Source: Microbacterium sp. T32 (GTDB lineage Bacteria > Actinomycetota > Actinomycetes > Actinomycetales > Microbacteriaceae). Taken from it: a stretch of 64,000 nt of DNA. Each line of letters opens with the position of its first letter. Positions within the stretch are counted from its first letter, which is position 1. The translations under genes were made by a program, and so were the position numbers. Under the pieces are notes generated by a model. That model saw only the letters and a list, made by a program, of their open reading frames with translations, was not told where the DNA came from and did not search any database. Shown in pieces: positions 7,609 through 34,763 of this stretch. The DNA lies in NCBI RefSeq assembly GCF_001619615.1, contig NZ_LQQP01000016.1:124001-188000 (forward strand). Reading direction: 5' to 3'.

Positions 7609-9129
7609 TCAGATCCCGCCGTCCACCGAGCGCGGGTACGTGATGGGTTCCTCGGGCACCAGAACCTCGGTGTCTCGGTTGAGACTCTCGCCGCGGAAGA
7701 ACGCCTTGGCGGCAGGGAACAGGTACCACAGCACCATCAGGACGACGCCGAACGCCAGCGACCCGATACCCAGCACGAACGTCCCGCCCACGCCGAGCAG
7801 CTCGGTGTTGCCGTAATCGACCGCGAACATGTCGATCGCCGACTGGATGAACGCGTACGTGAGCATCAGCGCCCCGAGGAGGGGCAGGATGCCGCGGTAG
7901 ATGAGGTTCCGCGCGGAGGTGAACAGGTCGCGGCGGAAGTACCAGACGCACGCGTAGCCGGTCAGGCCGTAGTAGAAGGCGATCGCGAGCCCGAGGGACG
8001 AGATGGAGTCCTGCAGGATGTTGTCGCTGATGAGCGTCATCCCGATGTAGTAGAGACTCGCGACGATACCCATCACGATCGTGGAGAATGACGGCGTCTG
8101 GAATCGCGGGTGCACCTCGGCGAACCGCTTCGGCAGCGCCTTGTAGGCGGCCATGGCGAGCGTGCCGCGCGCGGTCGGGAGGATCGTGGTCTGCGTCGAC
8201 GACACGGCGGACACGATGACCGCCAGGACGAGGAGCCACCCGAACGGTCCGAAGAGCCCGTCCTTGAGCGCCAGGAACACGTCGTCGACGTTGTAGATCG
8301 CGCCCTCCTCGCCGACGCCGGCGTACATCATCGCGGCGATCGTCACCGCGACGTAGGTGCCGAGCAGGATCACGGTGGTCAGCAGCGCTGCGCGGCCGGG
8401 AATGCGCTTGGGATCCTTCGTCTCCTCGTTGAGGGCGAGACACGTGTCCCAGCCCCAGTAGATGAAGAGCGCCAGCAGCACGGCCTCCGTGAAGCCCTCC
8501 CGGTCCTGGAACCCGAAGGGGTTCAGCCACTGAAGGTCGAACGGCGTCGGGTCGGGGGCCGTGCCGTCGAAGAACTTCCAGAGGGCCAGCACGACGAACA
8601 GCGCCAGCACGAGGTACTGCAGCCCGAGGAGGATGTTCTGGATCCGCTCGCCGATCTCCACACCCCGGTAGCTGACGTAGGTCATCGCGGCGATGAAGAA
8701 GACACCCGTGGCGGTCACCAGCGGCACGTTCTCCGCGAGTGAGCCGTCGCCGATCAGCGTCCAGACATAGATGCCGGCGATCTGCGCGAGGTTCGCCAGG
8801 ACGACGGTCCCCGCGACGGCGACACCCCAGCCGCCCATCCAGCCGACCCACGGGCCGAACGCCTTGGTCCCCCATGTGAACGTGGTGCCGCAGTCGGGCA
8901 CCTCGTTGTTCAGCTCGCGGTAGGCGAAGGCGATCAACAGCATCGGGATGAACGCGAGGATGAAGGCGATGGGCGCGGACCCGCCGACGGCCGCGATGAC
9001 GAAGCCGAGCGTCGCGACGAGTGAGTACACCGGGGCAGTGGATGCCAGGCCGATGACGGTCGAGCCCCAGAGGCCGAGGGTACCTGCGGCGAGGCCTTTG
9101 CCGGCCGTCCGTTCGGGTGCGGTGGTCAT
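7609..9129 (-). CDS. APC-superfamily amino acid permease
   Basis: Encodes 506 aa from the ATG at 9129. About 12-14 hydrophobic segments span the protein. The N-terminal GLWGSTVIGLASTAPVYSL and FAYRELNNEVPDCGTTFTWG match the APC family of amino acid/polyamine transporters (YjeH/PotE-like group). The substrate cannot be read from the sequence. Being convergent with an asparaginase suggests amino acid use but does not prove a link. A clear promoter (TTGACC, 18-bp spacer, TACGTT) lies immediately upstream, with 6 nt between the -10 and the ATG, so the mRNA is probably leaderless. Confidence 0.88.
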   Translation of the reverse strand: MTTAPERTAGKGLAAGTLGLWGSTVIGLASTAPVYSLVATLGFVIAAVGGSAPIAFILAFIPMLLIAFAYRELNNEVPDCGTTFTWGTKAFGPWVGWMGGWGVAVAGTVVLANLAQIAGIYVWTLIGDGSLAENVPLVTATGVFFIAAMTYVSYRGVEIGERIQNILLGLQYLVLALFVVLALWKFFDGTAPDPTPFDLQWLNPFGFQDREGFTEAVLLALFIYWGWDTCLALNEETKDPKRIPGRAALLTTVILLGTYVAVTIAAMMYAGVGEEGAIYNVDDVFLALKDGLFGPFGWLLVLAVIVSAVSSTQTTILPTARGTLAMAAYKALPKRFAEVHPRFQTPSFSTIVMGIVASLYYIGMTLISDNILQDSISSLGLAIAFYYGLTGYACVWYFRRDLFTSARNLIYRGILPLLGALMLTYAFIQSAIDMFAVDYGNTELLGVGGTFVLGIGSLAFGVVLMVLWYLFPAAKAFFRGESLNRDTEVLVPEEPITYPRSVDGGI

Positions 9130-9135
9130 GTGCTG

Positions 9136-9165
9136 AACGTAGGAGCAGCGACGCTCCCCGGTCAA
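9136..9165 (-). promoter_or_regulatory. Promoter of the APC permease (leaderless)
   Basis: On the minus strand TTGACC (9165-9160) and TACGTT (9141-9136) are separated by 18 bp. The -10 ends 6 nt before the ATG at 9129, so transcription should start at the A of the ATG. This is the best-formed -35/-10 pair among the leaderless candidates in the window. Confidence 0.65.
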
Positions 9166-9176
9166 GTTCTGCGCCG

Positions 9177-10007
9177 TCAGGCCCCGCGGCGGGCGACGTC
9201 GAGCACGACGATGGTGATGTTGTCGCGGCCCCCGTTTTCCAGCGCGGCGGCCATCATGGCCTCCACCGCTGCGGACGGGTCGGGATTGGCATCCAGGAAA
9301 TGACGGATGCCGAAATCGGTGAGTTCCTTCGTCAGTCCGTCCGAGCAGATCACGAAGCGGTCGCCGTCGAGCACCTCGAGCCGGAGGTAGTCGGGCTTGA
9401 CGCTGTCGCTCGGCCCCACCGCGCGGGTGATGACGTTGCCGTACGGGTGGTTCTCGGCCTCTTCCGGACTCAACCGCCCCGCGGCAATGAGTTCCTGGAC
9501 CACCGAGTGGTCGGTCGTGATCTGCACGATGTCGTCGTCGCGGAGGAGATAGACGCGCGAGTCCCCGATGTTGAGGGTGACCCAGTGCGGCTCGTCGCCC
9601 GAGGCCTCGAGGTAGAGGCCGGTCAACGTCGTCCCGGTTCCCTCATCCGTCGTCTCGGGGTGGGAGACGATGTCCTTCACCGCGCGGGCGAGGGCCTTCT
9701 CGATGTGTTTGGGCGAGACGGAACCGCCCTCGACCACAGCGCGGAGCCGATCCACCGTGCTCGCACTGGCGATCTCCCCACCGAGGTGACCGCCCATGCC
9801 ATCAGCGACCACGAACAGGGGGAACTCCGCGAGCACGGCGTCCTGATTGACCTCGCGCCGCTTACCCGTGTCGGTGATCGCCGCCCACGAGAGATCGAGC
9901 GCTCCATCCGACAGCGGAACGGTACGCGTGTGCGTGGTCACCTCGGGCACGAACAGATCCTCCGGTTGGCCGACATCTTCGCCGGCGGAACCGCGCGGCC
10001 CTGTCAT
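9177..10007 (-). CDS. PP2C-family serine/threonine protein phosphatase
   Basis: Encodes 276 aa. The metal-binding and catalytic motifs of PP2C/PPM phosphatases are present in order: NQDAVL, VADGMGGHLGGE, GTTLTGLYL, NIGDSRVYLLRD, CSDGLTKEL and GGRDNITIVVLDV. It removes phosphate from Ser/Thr using two metal ions. It probably counteracts eukaryotic-type kinases such as the one at 38597-39733, but it is not adjacent to a kinase. The ATG at 10007 overlaps a TAGGAT hexamer, so the real start could lie elsewhere, for example at a downstream GTG before TTHTRTVPLSD. Confidence 0.92.
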   Translation of the reverse strand: MTGPRGSAGEDVGQPEDLFVPEVTTHTRTVPLSDGALDLSWAAITDTGKRREVNQDAVLAEFPLFVVADGMGGHLGGEIASASTVDRLRAVVEGGSVSPKHIEKALARAVKDIVSHPETTDEGTGTTLTGLYLEASGDEPHWVTLNIGDSRVYLLRDDDIVQITTDHSVVQELIAAGRLSPEEAENHPYGNVITRAVGPSDSVKPDYLRLEVLDGDRFVICSDGLTKELTDFGIRHFLDANPDPSAAVEAMMAAALENGGRDNITIVVLDVARRGA

Positions 10008-10069
10008 CCTAGTCGACGCGGACACGGTCCTCAGGGATGCCGTGGGCGCGGCGCTGTGGGCAGAGACGA

Positions 10070-10102
10070 CGATGGGCTCCCCGCCGTGCGAGGAGCCCAT
10101 CG
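10070..10102 (-). terminator. Terminator of the DUF5684-like gene
   Basis: CGATGGGCTCC (10070-10080) and GGAGCCCATCG (10092-10102) pair perfectly over 11 bp. On the minus strand the hairpin is followed by TCGTCTCT. It lies just after the stop of the gene at 10109-10804 and before the PP2C gene. Confidence 0.7.
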
Positions 10103-10108
10103 GTGATG

Positions 10109-10804
10109 TCAGACCTGCGGACCCGCGGGGGGCGGAGGCGTGGGCCCGGCCGGGGGCGCCGGCGGGGGCGGCGTGGTCCCCGCGGCGGGCGGGGCCGGAG
10201 GCGGCGTGGAGGGCTGCGCGGGCGGCGCGTACCCGGCGGGTGCGCCGTAGCCGGCCGCGGGGGCCGGAGCGACCTGCTGACCGGGCTGGACGGGGACGCC
10301 GTTCCACACCGTCTTGTCGGCGAGGAAGGAGTTCGCCCACGGGGCGGGCGGGATGTTCGGGTTCCACGAGGCCGATCCGAACGCGAGGATGCCGAGCCAG
10401 ATGATCGTGCCGAGTCCCGGGATAAGCCACAGGAGCAGGTACGGCCAGTCCAATCCGAACTTGAGACCCACACGGTAGCCGATGAGAACTGCCGCGGCGA
10501 GGCCGACGAGCCCGAGAAGCCACCCGATCACCGGGATGTTCGTGAGTACGCCGGAGGCGACGGCCACGCCCAGGTAGACCCACGGCGAGAAATCACCCAG
10601 CTTCGCGAGGATCAGGGCGTTGTAGACGGGTACCCATGCCCGCCACTTTCCCTCGACGCCGGCCTTCTCGAAGATCTTCATCAGGAGGAAGGACCCGATG
10701 ACGTATCCCGCGGCCGCCAGGATCAGGACGAGCGGCAGAAGGATGACGAGCAGCGCGAGAACGCCCAGCCCGCTGCCGCCATCGGAGTAGTAGGAGTCAC
10801 CCAT
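10109..10804 (-). CDS. DUF5684-like membrane protein with proline-rich tail
   Basis: Encodes 231 aa. Four or five hydrophobic segments occupy residues 10-150. The motif KAGVEGKWRAWVPVYNALILAKL is the hallmark of a family of small membrane proteins (DUF5684/signal-peptidase-like region) whose function is unknown. The last 75 residues are a low-complexity tail rich in Pro, Ala and Gly (VAPAPAAGYGAPAGYAPP, PTPPPPAGPQV), probably a disordered cytoplasmic extension. AAAGGGAA precedes the ATG. A shorter, apparently truncated relative is encoded at 42929-43156. Confidence 0.8.
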   Translation of the reverse strand: MGDSYYSDGGSGLGVLALLVILLPLVLILAAAGYVIGSFLLMKIFEKAGVEGKWRAWVPVYNALILAKLGDFSPWVYLGVAVASGVLTNIPVIGWLLGLVGLAAAVLIGYRVGLKFGLDWPYLLLWLIPGLGTIIWLGILAFGSASWNPNIPPAPWANSFLADKTVWNGVPVQPGQQVAPAPAAGYGAPAGYAPPAQPSTPPPAPPAAGTTPPPPAPPAGPTPPPPAGPQV

Positions 10805-30663: not shown

Positions 30664-31995
30664 TCAGTTCCCTTCCACGCGCAGTACGGAGACCACGCGC
30701 TCGACGACGCCGCTCGCGGCGAGACGCTCGACGGTCTCGCTCAGGTCTTGCTCACGGGCCTGGTGTGTTCCGATGACCAGACGCGCCGAGCCGCCGGCGG
30801 CGGGGTTCTCGGCATCCGGTTCGATGGTGGTCTGCTCGACGGTCGCGATCGAGACGCGGCCCTCGCTCAGGATGCCGGCGACCGTGGCGAGCACGCCGGG
30901 CTGGTCGTCGACTTCGAGCGTGATCTGGTACCGCGTGATGACGCGTCCGATCGGCACGGTGGGGAGGTTGGCGCGCGTGGATTCGCCGACGCCCACACCC
31001 CCGGCGATGTGGCGGCGCGCGGCCGAGACGACATCGCCGAGCACGGCGGAGGCGGTCTGCACGCCGCCCGCCCCGGCGCCGTAGAACATCAGGTCGCCGG
31101 CGGCCTCGGCCTGGACGAACACGGCGTTGTTCGCGCCGTGCACGCTCGCGAGCGGGTGCGTGCGCTCGACGAGCGCGGGGTACACGCGCACCGAGATCGA
31201 CTCGGTGGCCTCGCCGTCGGCGGCGGGGAGCCGCTCGCACACGGCGAGGAGCTTGACGACGTACCCGGCGTGCCGCGCGGACTCGATGATCGCGGCGTCG
31301 ATCTGCGTGATGCCCTCGCGGTGGACGGCATCCAGCGGAACGGTCGTGTGGAAGGCGAGGCTCGCGAGGATCGCGGCCTTCTGCGCAGCGTCGTAGCCCT
31401 CGACGTCGGCCGTGGGGTCGGCTTCGGCGTAGCCGAGCGCCTGCGCCTGCGCGAGGACGTCGCCGAAGTCGGCGCCCTCGGTGTCCATCCGGTCGAGGAT
31501 GTAGTTCGTCGTGCCGTTGACGATGCCCATGATGCGCACGACGCGATCGCCCGCGAGCGAGTCGCGCAGCGGCCGGATGATCGGGATCGCGCCGGCGGCG
31601 GCCGCCTCGTAGTAGACCTCGGCGCCGACCTGGTCGGCGGCCTCGAAGATCTCGGACCCGTGCGTGGCGAGCAGCGCCTTGTTGGCGGTGACGACGTCGG
31701 CGCCGGAGTTGATCGCCTGCAGCACCTGCGTGCGCGCGGGTTCGATACCGCCCATGAGCTCGATGACGATGTCGGAGCCGTTGATGAGCGTCTCGGCATC
31801 CGTCGTGAACAGCTCGCGGGGCAGCTCTGTGTCGCGCTTTCCGTCCACGTTGCGGACGGCGATGCCCGCCAGTTCGAGGTTCGCGCCGGCACGGTCGGCC
31901 AGTTCGGCGCGGTGCTTGAGCAGCAGGTCGGCGACCTGCGAGCCGACGGCACCGGCGCCCAGCAGGGCGACGCGCAGCGTGCGGTAGTCGGTCAT
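30664..31995 (-). CDS. hom: Homoserine dehydrogenase with ACT domain
   Basis: Encodes 443 aa. An N-terminal Rossmann domain ([15 protein letters not shown]) is followed by the catalytic domain with the conserved [14 protein letters not shown] and [23 protein letters not shown]-terminal ACT domain ([19 protein letters not shown]) probably mediates threonine feedback inhibition, as in other actinobacteria. It reduces aspartate semialdehyde to homoserine. Its ATG overlaps the lysA stop by four bases. Confidence 0.96.
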
Positions 31996-33422
31996 TCGGT
32001 GTCTCCGTGGGATGGGGTGGGGGAAGCTGATGCCGCGACGCCGACGTCGCGGGAGAGGAGATCCTCGACGGTCTCGCCGCGGACGATCACGCGCGCCTCG
32101 CCGTCGCGCACGGCGACGACGGGGGGACGCGGGGTGTAGTTGTAGTTGCTCGCGAGGGAGAAGCAGTAGGCGCCCGTGGCGGGCACCGCGAGCAGGTCAC
32201 CCGGAGTGATGTCGGCCGGGAGGTACTCGGCATCCACCACGATGTCTCCGGATTCGCAGTGGTGACCGACGACGCGCGACAGCGCGGGGGCGGCGGGACT
32301 CGTGCGCGAGACGATCCGCGCGGAGAAGTCGGCGCCGTACAGGGCCGGACGCGCGTTGTCGCTCATGCCGCCGTCGACGCTGACGTAGGTGCGCTCGCGC
32401 TCGTCGCCGATCGTGACCTTCTTCACGGTTCCGACCTCGTAGAGCGTCACGCCCGCCTGTCCCACGATGACGCGGCCCGGCTCGCACGCGACGTCGGGCA
32501 TCGGGATGCCGCGCACCTCGCACTCGTCGGCGATCGCATCGACGATGCCGTCGGCGATCTCCTCGATCGGGCGCGGGTCGTCGACCGACGTGTACGAGAT
32601 GCCGAAGCCGCCGCCGACGTTGAGGAGCGGGATGTCGCCGCCCGCGAGCAGACCGGCGTGGAGGTCGACGAGGCGCGCCGCCGACTCGCGGAAGCCCGCC
32701 GAATCGAAGATCTGAGAGCCGATGTGGGCGTGGAGCCCGACGAAGCACAGACTCGGCAGCTCGCGGATGCGGGCGACCGCGTCCGCTGCCCCCTCGAGCG
32801 AGAAGCCGAACTTCTGATCTTCGTGCGCGGTCGCGAGGAACGCGTGCGTCTCCGCGTGGACGCCGGTGCGCACACGCACGAGGACCGACTGCACGGCGCC
32901 GCGGCGATCCGCGATCGCGGCGAGACGCTCGATCTCGATGGGGCTGTCGAGCACGACCGAACCGATGCCGACCTCGACCGCCCGCTCGAGTTCGGCGACG
33001 CTCTTGTTGTTGCCGTGGAAACCGAGGCGGGCGGGGTCGGCGCCACCGGCGAGGGCGACCTCGAGCTCGCCGCGCGTGCACACGTCGACGGCGAGACCCT
33101 CTTCGGTGACCCAGCGGACGACCTCGGTGGAGAGGAACGCCTTGCCCGCGTAGTACACGCGGGAGCGGATGCCATGCCGCTCGGCCGCGGCCCCGAAGGC
33201 GTCTCGCGCGCGGCGGGCGTGGGCGCGGACCTCGGCCTCATCGAGCACGTACAGCGGGGTGCCGAAGCGGTCGCGCAGGTCGAACACGCTCACCCCGGCG
33301 ATCTCGACGGAGCCGTCGTCGACGCGGTGCGCGGAGGTCGGCCAGACGGAGGCGACGAGCTCGTTCGCTTCGGCCGGGGCGGTGAGCCACTCGGGCACGA
33401 GCGCGGAGTGCGAGGCGGACAC
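31992..33422 (-). CDS. lysA: Diaminopimelate decarboxylase
   Basis: Encodes 476 aa from a GTG at 33422. It is a fold-III PLP enzyme: the Schiff-base Lys in VYYAGKAFLSTEV, GLHAHIGSQIFD, the Gly-rich phosphate loop NVGGGFGISY, ACEPGRVIVG, and the catalytic Cys in GHHCESGDI. It makes lysine from meso-diaminopimelate. The start has no clear ribosome site; TAGACT (complement of 33512-33517) and a CGGCATATGCCG palindrome lie about 85-110 nt upstream. Confidence 0.95.
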   Translation of the reverse strand: MSASHSALVPEWLTAPAEANELVASVWPTSAHRVDDGSVEIAGVSVFDLRDRFGTPLYVLDEAEVRAHARRARDAFGAAAERHGIRSRVYYAGKAFLSTEVVRWVTEEGLAVDVCTRGELEVALAGGADPARLGFHGNNKSVAELERAVEVGIGSVVLDSPIEIERLAAIADRRGAVQSVLVRVRTGVHAETHAFLATAHEDQKFGFSLEGAADAVARIRELPSLCFVGLHAHIGSQIFDSAGFRESAARLVDLHAGLLAGGDIPLLNVGGGFGISYTSVDDPRPIEEIADGIVDAIADECEVRGIPMPDVACEPGRVIVGQAGVTLYEVGTVKKVTIGDERERTYVSVDGGMSDNARPALYGADFSARIVSRTSPAAPALSRVVGHHCESGDIVVDAEYLPADITPGDLLAVPATGAYCFSLASNYNYTPRPPVVAVRDGEARVIVRGETVEDLLSRDVGVAASASPTPSHGDTE

Positions 33423-33659: not shown

Positions 33660-33671
33660 TACCGTGAACCG
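33660..33671 (+). promoter_or_regulatory. -10 element giving a leaderless mRNA for the kinase/PqqD-like gene
   Basis: TACCGT (33660-33665) is followed by 6 nt and the GTG at 33672. This is the same -10/start spacing seen at other genes here, and there is no ribosome site. Confidence 0.5.
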
Positions 33672-34763
33672 GTGCCGAGCCCGTCCCCTTCCCCCGTCCT
33701 CGTCGTCGATGCCCTCGGCGTCCATATCGGCATCGAGCTCGGGGGCCTCGACGACGCGGACCGGAATGCGGTGCGTGCGGCATGGACGGGTGCGCTCGCG
33801 GACGAGAACGCCGAGCCGCGCGCGACCGTGACGCCCACGGCATCCCTCGGTCCCGGACCGATGCTCGCCGCCCTCTCAAGCGCCGTCACGCTCAGCGCCA
33901 TCAACGAACGCCGGGGCGACCTGTGGATGCTGCACGCCGCCGGGGTCGCGGGGAGCGACGGAGCGGTCGTGGTGCTCGTCGGTCCCTCGGGCGCCGGGAA
34001 GACGACCGCCATCCGCCACCTCGCGGCCCGGGCCGGATATGTCTCGGACGAAACGATCGCCCTGGATGCCACCGGAGCGGTGCTGCCCTACCGGAAGCCG
34101 CTGTCGGTCATCACCGACGGCGTCGCGCACAAGGTGCAGCACTCCCCCGTCGACCTCGGCCTGGGTGAGCTGCCGACGGCACCCCTCCGGCTCGCGCGCA
34201 TCGTTCTGCTCGACCGGCGCAGCGAACCGACGCCCGCACGCCTGCTGCCGGTGCCCACCTCGGAGGCGATCGCCGAGCTGGCCGGGCAGTCCAGCGCCCT
34301 CGCGCAGCTCCCCGGCGCGGTCCGCACGATGGCGGGCCTCATCGCGCAGACGGGCGGCGTCGTGCGCGCCGAGTACGCCGAGGCCGAGGATCTCGCGATG
34401 CTCGTCCGCGGCCTGTCCGACGCCGGGGCGCCCACGACGGTTCCCTCGGTCGTGACGCCCCCAGCGACCCGTCGTGCACCGGAGGACACCGCGGGGCCCC
34501 GCTACGAACGCACGGAGACTGTGGACTGGTCGCCGCTCCCCGACGGCACCCTCGCGGTGCTCACGGCGAACGCCGACGGGAGCGGCATCCTGCGTGTGCT
34601 CGCCGGCGTCGCGCCGGCGCTGTGGGAGGCCGCCGACGGCGTCTCCCGCGATGCGCTGGTGGCCGACGTGGACGCGCGGTTCGACTGCCCGGATCCGGGT
34701 CTGGTGACCGACACCACCCTCGCGTCACTCGTCGACGCGGGACTGCTCCGGGTGGCCGGCTGA
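33672..34763 (+). CDS. HPr-kinase-like P-loop protein fused to a PqqD-like domain
   Basis: Encodes 363 aa from a GTG. Residues ~75-200 resemble the HprK/PEPCK-like kinase fold: LHAAGVAGSDGAVVVLVGPSGAGKTTA with a Walker A, then AGYVSDETIALDATGAVLPY, the acidic region that usually holds the second metal ligand. The C-terminus (about 290-363) resembles PqqD winged-helix domains: ALWEAADGVSRDALVADVDARFD, then TLASLVDAGLL. In RiPP clusters such proteins act on or carry a peptide precursor, but no radical SAM, protease or precursor gene is visible here. It interrupts the argS-lysA neighbourhood on the opposite strand. Function unknown. Confidence 0.7.
   Translation: MPSPSPSPVLVVDALGVHIGIELGGLDDADRNAVRAAWTGALADENAEPRATVTPTASLGPGPMLAALSSAVTLSAINERRGDLWMLHAAGVAGSDGAVVVLVGPSGAGKTTAIRHLAARAGYVSDETIALDATGAVLPYRKPLSVITDGVAHKVQHSPVDLGLGELPTAPLRLARIVLLDRRSEPTPARLLPVPTSEAIAELAGQSSALAQLPGAVRTMAGLIAQTGGVVRAEYAEAEDLAMLVRGLSDAGAPTTVPSVVTPPATRRAPEDTAGPRYERTETVDWSPLPDGTLAVLTANADGSGILRVLAGVAPALWEAADGVSRDALVADVDARFDCPDPGLVTDTTLASLVDAGLLRVAG

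Follow-up and report, generated by a model that had tools for sequence, protein, structure and literature searches.

A fused HprK-type kinase and PqqD-like domain of Microbacterium is linked across genomes to a Tat-type signal peptide of surface proteins

Our analysis of a 64-kb stretch of the Microbacterium sp. T32 genome (contig NZ_LQQP01000016.1, positions 124,001 to 188,000; hereafter, the window) showed that a 363-aa protein encoded at 33672..34763 on the + strand combines a kinase of the HprK/PEPCK fold with a C-terminal RRE (PqqD-like) domain, as assigned from models and structural matches. Across genomes, this kinase is linked, statistically and in a near-exclusive manner, to a uniform Tat-type signal peptide found on scattered surface proteins. 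The reading that we favour on balance is that the RRE binds the signal of these surface proteins in the cytoplasm and that the kinase phosphorylates them, probably on a conserved serine of the signal, before Tat export. The preliminary description of this DNA had reported an HPr-kinase-like and PqqD-like fusion with no RiPP cluster adjacent to it, and that observation is confirmed.

The gene begins with GTG and was judged to be coding from its codon-position GC. A TANNNT-type -10 box (TACCGT, 33660..33665, + strand) ends 6 nt before the start codon, and a TANNNT box with identical spacing is present in the three orthologues compared, supporting the earlier suggestion of a leaderless start; going by these sequences, the window gene is likely leaderless. 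The closest named relative, from Microbacterium sp. B19, is 95% identical. Of 247 genomes surveyed in the genus, 96 carry kinase relatives, as do 21 of the 92 genera surveyed across the order, which rules out that the gene is an isolated orphan or a chance ORF. The 80 best named loci include representatives of Leucobacter, Arthrobacter, Paenarthrobacter, Pseudoclavibacter, Herbiconiux, Agromyces, Cryobacterium, Brevibacterium, Tessaracoccus and Sinomonas.

To characterize the kinase domain, an AlphaFold2 model of the full protein (mean pLDDT 91.2, pTM 0.87) was compared to solved structures. Over residues 1-310, the best structural matches listed were PEP carboxykinases (2pxz: Z 14.6, rmsd 4.7, 243 residues aligned); HprK itself was absent from the matches listed for this model. 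By this model, the main part of the window protein has the HprK/PEPCK fold, in agreement with the P-loop region of that type proposed previously, and the comparison did not place it in a different NTPase family. The Walker A sequence that had been pointed out, GPSGAGKTT, lies at residues 104-112 (33981..34007, + strand), both in the protein itself and in alignments of relatives. His88 (33933..33935, + strand) and the acidic pair Asp126-Glu127 (34047..34052, + strand) are invariant in alignments of 11 and of 23 relatives; their equivalence to known kinase residues was judged by eye, and the position of His88 is what we take to be the place of the catalytic histidine in HprK-type kinases. YRKPLS at residues 140-145 (34089..34106, + strand) is invariant in the 11 relatives, with KPLS retained in the 23. 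Altogether, the residues invariant across the 23 relatives are His88, G107, G109, Lys110, Asp126, Glu127, Lys142 and Arg182, and by these alignments the kinase site is intact. Lasso-peptide kinases are described as carrying a His-Lys-Asp-Asp motif (PMC9266682); the second acidic residue is Glu in the window family but Asp in the lasso kinases, which counts against our main reading. A PDB sequence search with the single window protein returned only P-loop noise, and model TIGR04352 scored 22.8 bits on the kinase region against a curated cut-off of 200. In a separate observation, a second copy of the fusion in another genome (L032 in G013; 9039-10445, - strand) has kept two PqqD domains while its Walker A is gone, and its sequence suggests that it is probably a pseudokinase.

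The RRE domain occupies residues 277-363 (34500..34760, + strand), as assigned from a C-terminal model, structural matches and hhalign, and is joined to the kinase by a disordered linker at residues 254-270 (34431..34481, + strand; pLDDT <50). When the C-terminal 94 residues were modelled separately (pLDDT 93.1) and compared using VIA-align, the best of the matches listed were RREs of lasso peptides crystallised with their leaders, namely TbiB1 (5v1v; Z 10.2, rmsd 2.3, 84 residues aligned) and FusB1 (6jx3; Z 9.5, rmsd 2.2, 82 residues aligned). A plain Foldseek search matched nothing to this small domain at E<=0.001, the RREs having surfaced only with VIA-align, and PqqD itself was absent from the structural matches listed. 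From the model, the C-terminus has the PqqD/RRE fold; the sequence evidence agrees with this but is weaker, the window copy of the domain being divergent. Pfam PqqD was absent from the best 25 of 28 families found at E<=10 for the window protein, and a PF05402 search of the T32 genome yielded three matches, with the window domain, which falls below the Pfam PqqD cut-off, not among them.

Relatives of the window protein were also compared by profile. A profile of the window domain's family (A2) matched the extra PqqD domain present in relatives with an hhalign probability of 97.8, and in L005 and L006 this extra domain passes Pfam PqqD with 40.0 and 50.3 bits (cut-off 23.4). When solved chains were searched with a profile built from 23 fusion proteins (A3), LppB (9x8z_B), which is the RRE of the linear polyphosphorylated peptide (LPP) system, came up with an E-value of 1.5e-5. 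With the A2 profile, the matches to PbaB1 (E 0.5) and LppB (E 0.72) were marginal, phmmer with L006 gave no match at E<=0.1, and TIGR04353 scored 18.3 and 20.3 bits on the relatives' extra PqqD domains (cut-off 35). Taken together, the TbiB1, FusB1 and hhalign results uphold the PqqD-like winged helix of the preliminary description and do not indicate a C-terminus unrelated to PqqD. The architecture of the fusion varies among relatives: 10 of 50 called fusion proteins are longer than 430 aa, and both of those scanned (L005 and L006) contain two PqqD stretches after the kinase. In the g10 genomes of the order survey (for example L210, L211 and L212), an in-frame TGA often cuts the kinase match short of the RRE part, so the two domains may be encoded by separate genes in these genomes.

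The window gene lies divergently between lysA and argS, as stated previously: LysA (31992-33422) is encoded on the - strand, the window gene on the + strand, and the LmeA-like (DUF2993) gene and ArgS that follow are both on the - strand. A Pfam scan of 10 neighbours found no RiPP precursor, radical SAM or protease gene, no macrolactam synthetase or B2 protease and no signal peptidase; one neighbour is a transglutaminase-like protein and one has no family. The 249-bp gap upstream of the gene contains only short or overlapping ORFs, and the idea of a short precursor encoded there was rejected on that ground. The gene is less isolated than it had appeared. The same genome has a second kinase copy on contig 6, the end of which overlaps a signal peptidase I gene, in an exopolysaccharide region with DUF4012, Wzz, LMW-PTP, Wzy and glycosyltransferase genes, and the 10 genes scanned near this copy likewise included no macrolactam synthetase or B2 protease. 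The signal peptidase is of the bacterial type (TIGR02227, 117 bits, cut-off 47; TIGR02228, 22.3 bits, cut-off 51.85). The genome's one NTP_transf_5 gene is on contig 45 (PF14907, 42.9 bits, cut-off 31.2). The window gene is itself a second copy located away from the exopolysaccharide locus, and the earlier claim that no RiPP cluster lies beside it stands.

A survey of homologue neighbourhoods, which had been proposed as a check, covered 51 context loci, in which genes were named by cluster, partly by eye, with some names confirmed by Pfam. The kinase lies near argS in 20 loci (window included), usually with lysA as well, and elsewhere in 31, mostly with exopolysaccharide-type genes: Wzz in 24, DUF4012 in 22, NTP_transf_5 in 21, LMW-PTP in 18, an AraC-type gene in 18 and signal peptidase I in 14. 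The 20 loci near argS were found to have none of these six genes. A tree of 53 proteins places the argS-site kinases in two groups, one of 12 that includes the window protein and one of 7. The AraC-type regulator gene, found at kinase loci away from argS, is present in 32 of the 80 named loci. One Microbacterium-like kinase locus (L134) is on a 14-kb contig of an assembly labelled Stenotrophomonas maltophilia P13, a gammaproteobacterium, and is probably contamination. A PqqD domain at the N-terminus of NTP_transf_5, suspected by eye from L046, was dismissed after hhalign gave probabilities of only 23.6 against PqqD2 and 2.8 against A2.

Many of the kinases are adjoined by genes for secreted proteins with a very uniform N-terminus. 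A total of 34 such N-termini, all taken from DNA around kinases, gave a gapless alignment of 31 columns, [SD]RRtvvKGAAWSVPVIAxAVAxPxAAAS, and served as seeds for a signal profile of Tat type (in summary form RRxxxKGAAWSVPVIAxAVAxPxAAAS, 31 residues). The expression used to find the seeds required RR, AW and the first Pro and, more loosely, a small residue further on, leaving the second Pro and the Ser free. Among unique matches to the profile in the loci examined, WxxPx[LVIFA] stands at fixed columns in 137 of 143, the second Pro is present in 138 of 143, and Ser occupies column 28, 17 residues after the Trp, in 128 of 140; for the 106 non-seed matches, the corresponding counts are 104, 101 and 96. 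The 123 full-length signal proteins range from 116 to 961 aa (median 201), and 58 of them have at least two Cys. None of the 123 has an LPxTG-like C-terminus and one has a hydrophobic C-terminal tail. Few of the 67 proteins scanned match known families, and those that do are of extracellular types (M60 peptidase, Big_1, thioester/TQXA domain and choice-of-anchor G).

Genes with this signal are scattered over the genome; in G075, for example, five matches lie on five contigs, with the kinase on one. The T32 genome has three good matches to the profile (E 3.7e-8, 1.0e-7 and 9.1e-7) and one marginal match (8.3e-4), none of them in the window, and no match to the exact DNA pattern RR..K[GA]AAWxxP. 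Three large, repeat-bearing surface proteins of this genome (L257, L258 and L259, on contigs 22, 19 and 13) have similar starts after the signal and are likely its substrates. In some loci, signal genes are numerous: L179 and L187 of Pseudoclavibacter have seven and five in a stretch of about 20 kb around the kinase.

To determine whether kinase and signal occur together, genomes were searched with cut-offs fixed in advance, E<=1e-12 for the kinase and E<=1e-3 for the signal, and co-occurrence was assessed with Fisher tests, which treat genomes as independent although they are related. Within the genus (247 genomes), 94 have both, two have the kinase only, two the signal only and 149 neither (2e-63, phi 0.97). 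The exact DNA pattern, which involves no profile, was found in 54 of these genomes, 53 of which have the kinase. In 297 genomes of the order, the counts were 53 with both, six kinase only, five signal only and 233 neither (1e-45), and leaving out the window's genus gave 47, six, five and 226. Counting by genus (92 genera) gave 19, two, zero and 71 (9e-18). In 182 genomes of the class, nine had both, seven the kinase only, three the signal only and 163 neither (5e-9); six of the seven kinase-only cases are partial matches of one family (E 1e-12 to 1e-15), the three signal-only matches have E >5e-5, and stricter cut-offs, picked afterwards, gave nine, one, zero and 172. Because the agreement is seen inside the genus, outside it and by genus, these searches make pure ancestry unlikely as the cause of the co-occurrence.

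The exceptions in the genus are G003 and G141 (kinase only) and G165 and G185 (signal only). In G165, two signal genes share an 8,080-base contig with Wzz and an AraC-type gene, and its kinase may therefore lie in an assembly gap; in G141, where the search found no signal gene, the kinase is beside Wzz and DUF4012. Signal genes were also found in 49 of the 80 named kinase loci, with 75 matches compared to about two expected under an even spread, a count that is partly circular because the profile seeds came from kinase loci. In the DNA examined, a signal gene is present at 7 of 19 argS-site loci (window excluded) and at 23 of the 31 others, leaving eight kinase loci away from argS in which none was found, which counts against our main reading. 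NTP_transf_5 also goes with the kinase in the genus: at E<=1e-4 for NTP_transf_5, 78 of the 96 kinase genomes have both and the other 18 lack a match, while five genomes have NTP_transf_5 only and 146 neither.

The closest known system is that of the LPP RiPPs of Bacillota, to which it is said to be restricted in its report (PMC13381572), which also supplies the following description. The system consists of LppK, LppB, LppS, LppN and LppA and also includes an MsbA-like exporter. In lasso and LPP systems, the leader motif bound by the RRE is [Y/W]xxPx[L/V/I/F/A], whose Trp or Tyr and small aliphatic residue, flanking a fixed Pro, sit in two hydrophobic pockets. The Ser phosphorylated by LppK follows the Tyr at a distance of 18 residues in the consensus given there, YxxPxVLxHQxIxFETxxS. 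Cleavage by the signal peptidase is assisted by the RRE, follows phosphorylation and is poor without the kinase, and the Discussion leaves open the biological role of the phosphorylated peptides (PMC13381572). Both systems have an HprK-like kinase, a PqqD-type RRE, a signal-peptidase-type enzyme, an NTP transferase and an association with capsular polysaccharide loci, along with the [Y/W]xxPx[LVIFA] motif and a Ser at a similar distance (18 residues after Tyr in LPP, 17 after Trp here). In contrast to LPP, kinase and RRE are fused rather than separate, the hosts are Actinomycetota, the signal peptidase at the paralogue locus is bacterial rather than of the archaeal/SipW type, and the candidate substrates, scattered surface proteins, carry WxxPx[IVL] within a Tat-type signal instead of the LPP precursor motif.

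Other known systems share fewer of these features. Paeninodin-like and pseudomycoidin lasso systems (PadeK, ThcoK, PsmK and PsmN) have a Ser-phosphorylating HprK-type kinase, an RRE and a hexose-adding nucleotidyltransferase, PsmN of pseudomycoidin adding hexoses to phosphoserine (PMC9266682). They differ from the window family in the lasso enzymes, absent from the scanned neighbours here, in the acidic pair, Asp-Glu here, and in the putative substrate, here a surface protein. The HPr-rel-A families of NCBIfam (TIGR04352, HprK-related kinase A, and TIGR04353, PqqD_rel_X) also pair an HprK-type kinase with a PqqD-type chaperone, but all scores are far below the curated cut-offs given above, so the window family was not filed under either. 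Searches of the open-licence literature yielded neither a link of a PqqD/RRE-HprK kinase with exopolysaccharide or Tat signals nor the arrangement seen here, namely a one-chain kinase-RRE, a Tat signal as leader and many surface substrates, in Actinomycetota. Parts of the system are of known kinds, and the arrangement appears to be new.

As the signal has the LPP/lasso RRE motif at a fixed place, together with a Ser, the simplest reading is that the RRE-kinase acts on the signal peptide. The fusion would then supply both recognition and kinase activity in a modification system linked to secretion. Its RRE would bind AWxxPx[IVL] within the Tat-type signal of folded surface preproteins while these are still in the cytoplasm, and its HprK-type domain would phosphorylate the preprotein, most likely on the conserved Ser, which lies at the signal-peptidase site or immediately beyond it. 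Export would be next, and then cleavage by signal peptidase I, and in most such genomes the phosphate may be decorated by NTP_transf_5, a step comparable to that of PsmN in pseudomycoidin. Binding, phosphorylation, the residue modified, the sequence of events, the part played by NTP_transf_5 and the link to exopolysaccharide are our inferences; the Tat route would fit a modification made before export. Against this reading, ordinary signal peptidase I could cut the signal proteins with no special partner. The few profile matches and the missing exact pattern in T32, the weaker class-level counts at preset cut-offs, the relatedness of the genomes compared, the origin of all profile seeds near kinases and the 18 kinase genomes that lack an NTP_transf_5 match also weigh against it. 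The preliminary description had imagined a peptide-directed kinase acting on a remote or tiny precursor; in our best reading the substrates would indeed be remote, while the tiny precursor gives way to candidates that are full-sized surface proteins. In a bolder extension, which we consider less likely than not, the scheme would sort proteins by their N-termini in Actinomycetota: a WxxP code would be read in Tat signals, and a phosphorylated Ser would come to stand at the start of the mature chain in as many as about 20 surface proteins per genome. Through the phosphate and a sugar or polysaccharide attached by NTP_transf_5, the N-terminus rather than a C-terminal sorting signal would then fix these proteins to the surface or matrix; the lack of LPxTG-like C-termini and the single hydrophobic tail among the 123 proteins are consistent with this.

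We consider it unlikely that the fusion instead has short RiPP precursors as its substrates, in the manner of LPP or paeninodin-like systems, with the Tat proteins merely sharing an exopolysaccharide regulon and lineages. Such an explanation would account for the LPP-like set of kinase, RRE, signal peptidase and NTP transferase in capsule loci (PMC13381572) and for the frequent presence of signal genes in kinase loci; however, no short precursor is seen in the window, the RRE motif has its fixed place in the signal itself, and the signal tracks the kinase genome-wide, onto other contigs too, as in G075. A role of the fusion as a regulator of exopolysaccharide synthesis, in which it might phosphorylate partners such as Wzz-like proteins or phosphatases and the Tat link would come from shared ecology or ancestry, appears very improbable: the Wzz, DUF4012 and LMW-PTP genes at 24, 22 and 18 of the 51 context loci would suit it, but the argS-site loci have none of them beside the kinase, seven of these loci have a signal gene, and the RRE domain would be left with no evident use.

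Tat signals are also bound by dedicated chaperones, the redox-enzyme maturation proteins (REMPs), which have a different fold, serve cofactor enzymes and have no kinase. The fusion would resemble REMPs in binding a Tat signal peptide before export and differ from them in fold, in clients and in its kinase. By analogy, the RRE could only escort Tat substrates as a folding or proofreading chaperone, the P-loop part being an ATP-driven switch that transfers no phosphate to the substrate, and the retention of two PqqD domains in L032, which has no Walker A, would be in keeping with such a role. We regard this as quite unlikely, since the His, the P-loop Lys and the acidic pair are invariant in 23 relatives and related kinases of the HprK type phosphorylate Ser in both lasso and LPP systems (PMC9266682, PMC13381572).

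If phosphorylation of the signal-bearing proteins is correct, RRE-guided phosphorylation would extend from small natural products to secreted surface proteins encoded throughout the genome. It would also provide a function for the Tat-type signal motif, on which searches of the open-licence literature yielded no paper, and explain the presence of HprK-type kinases and NTP transferases in exopolysaccharide loci. Should N-terminal anchoring also hold, RiPP machinery would serve general protein secretion, and a system in which an N-terminal phosphate is the surface anchor would be more than a variant of those already known.
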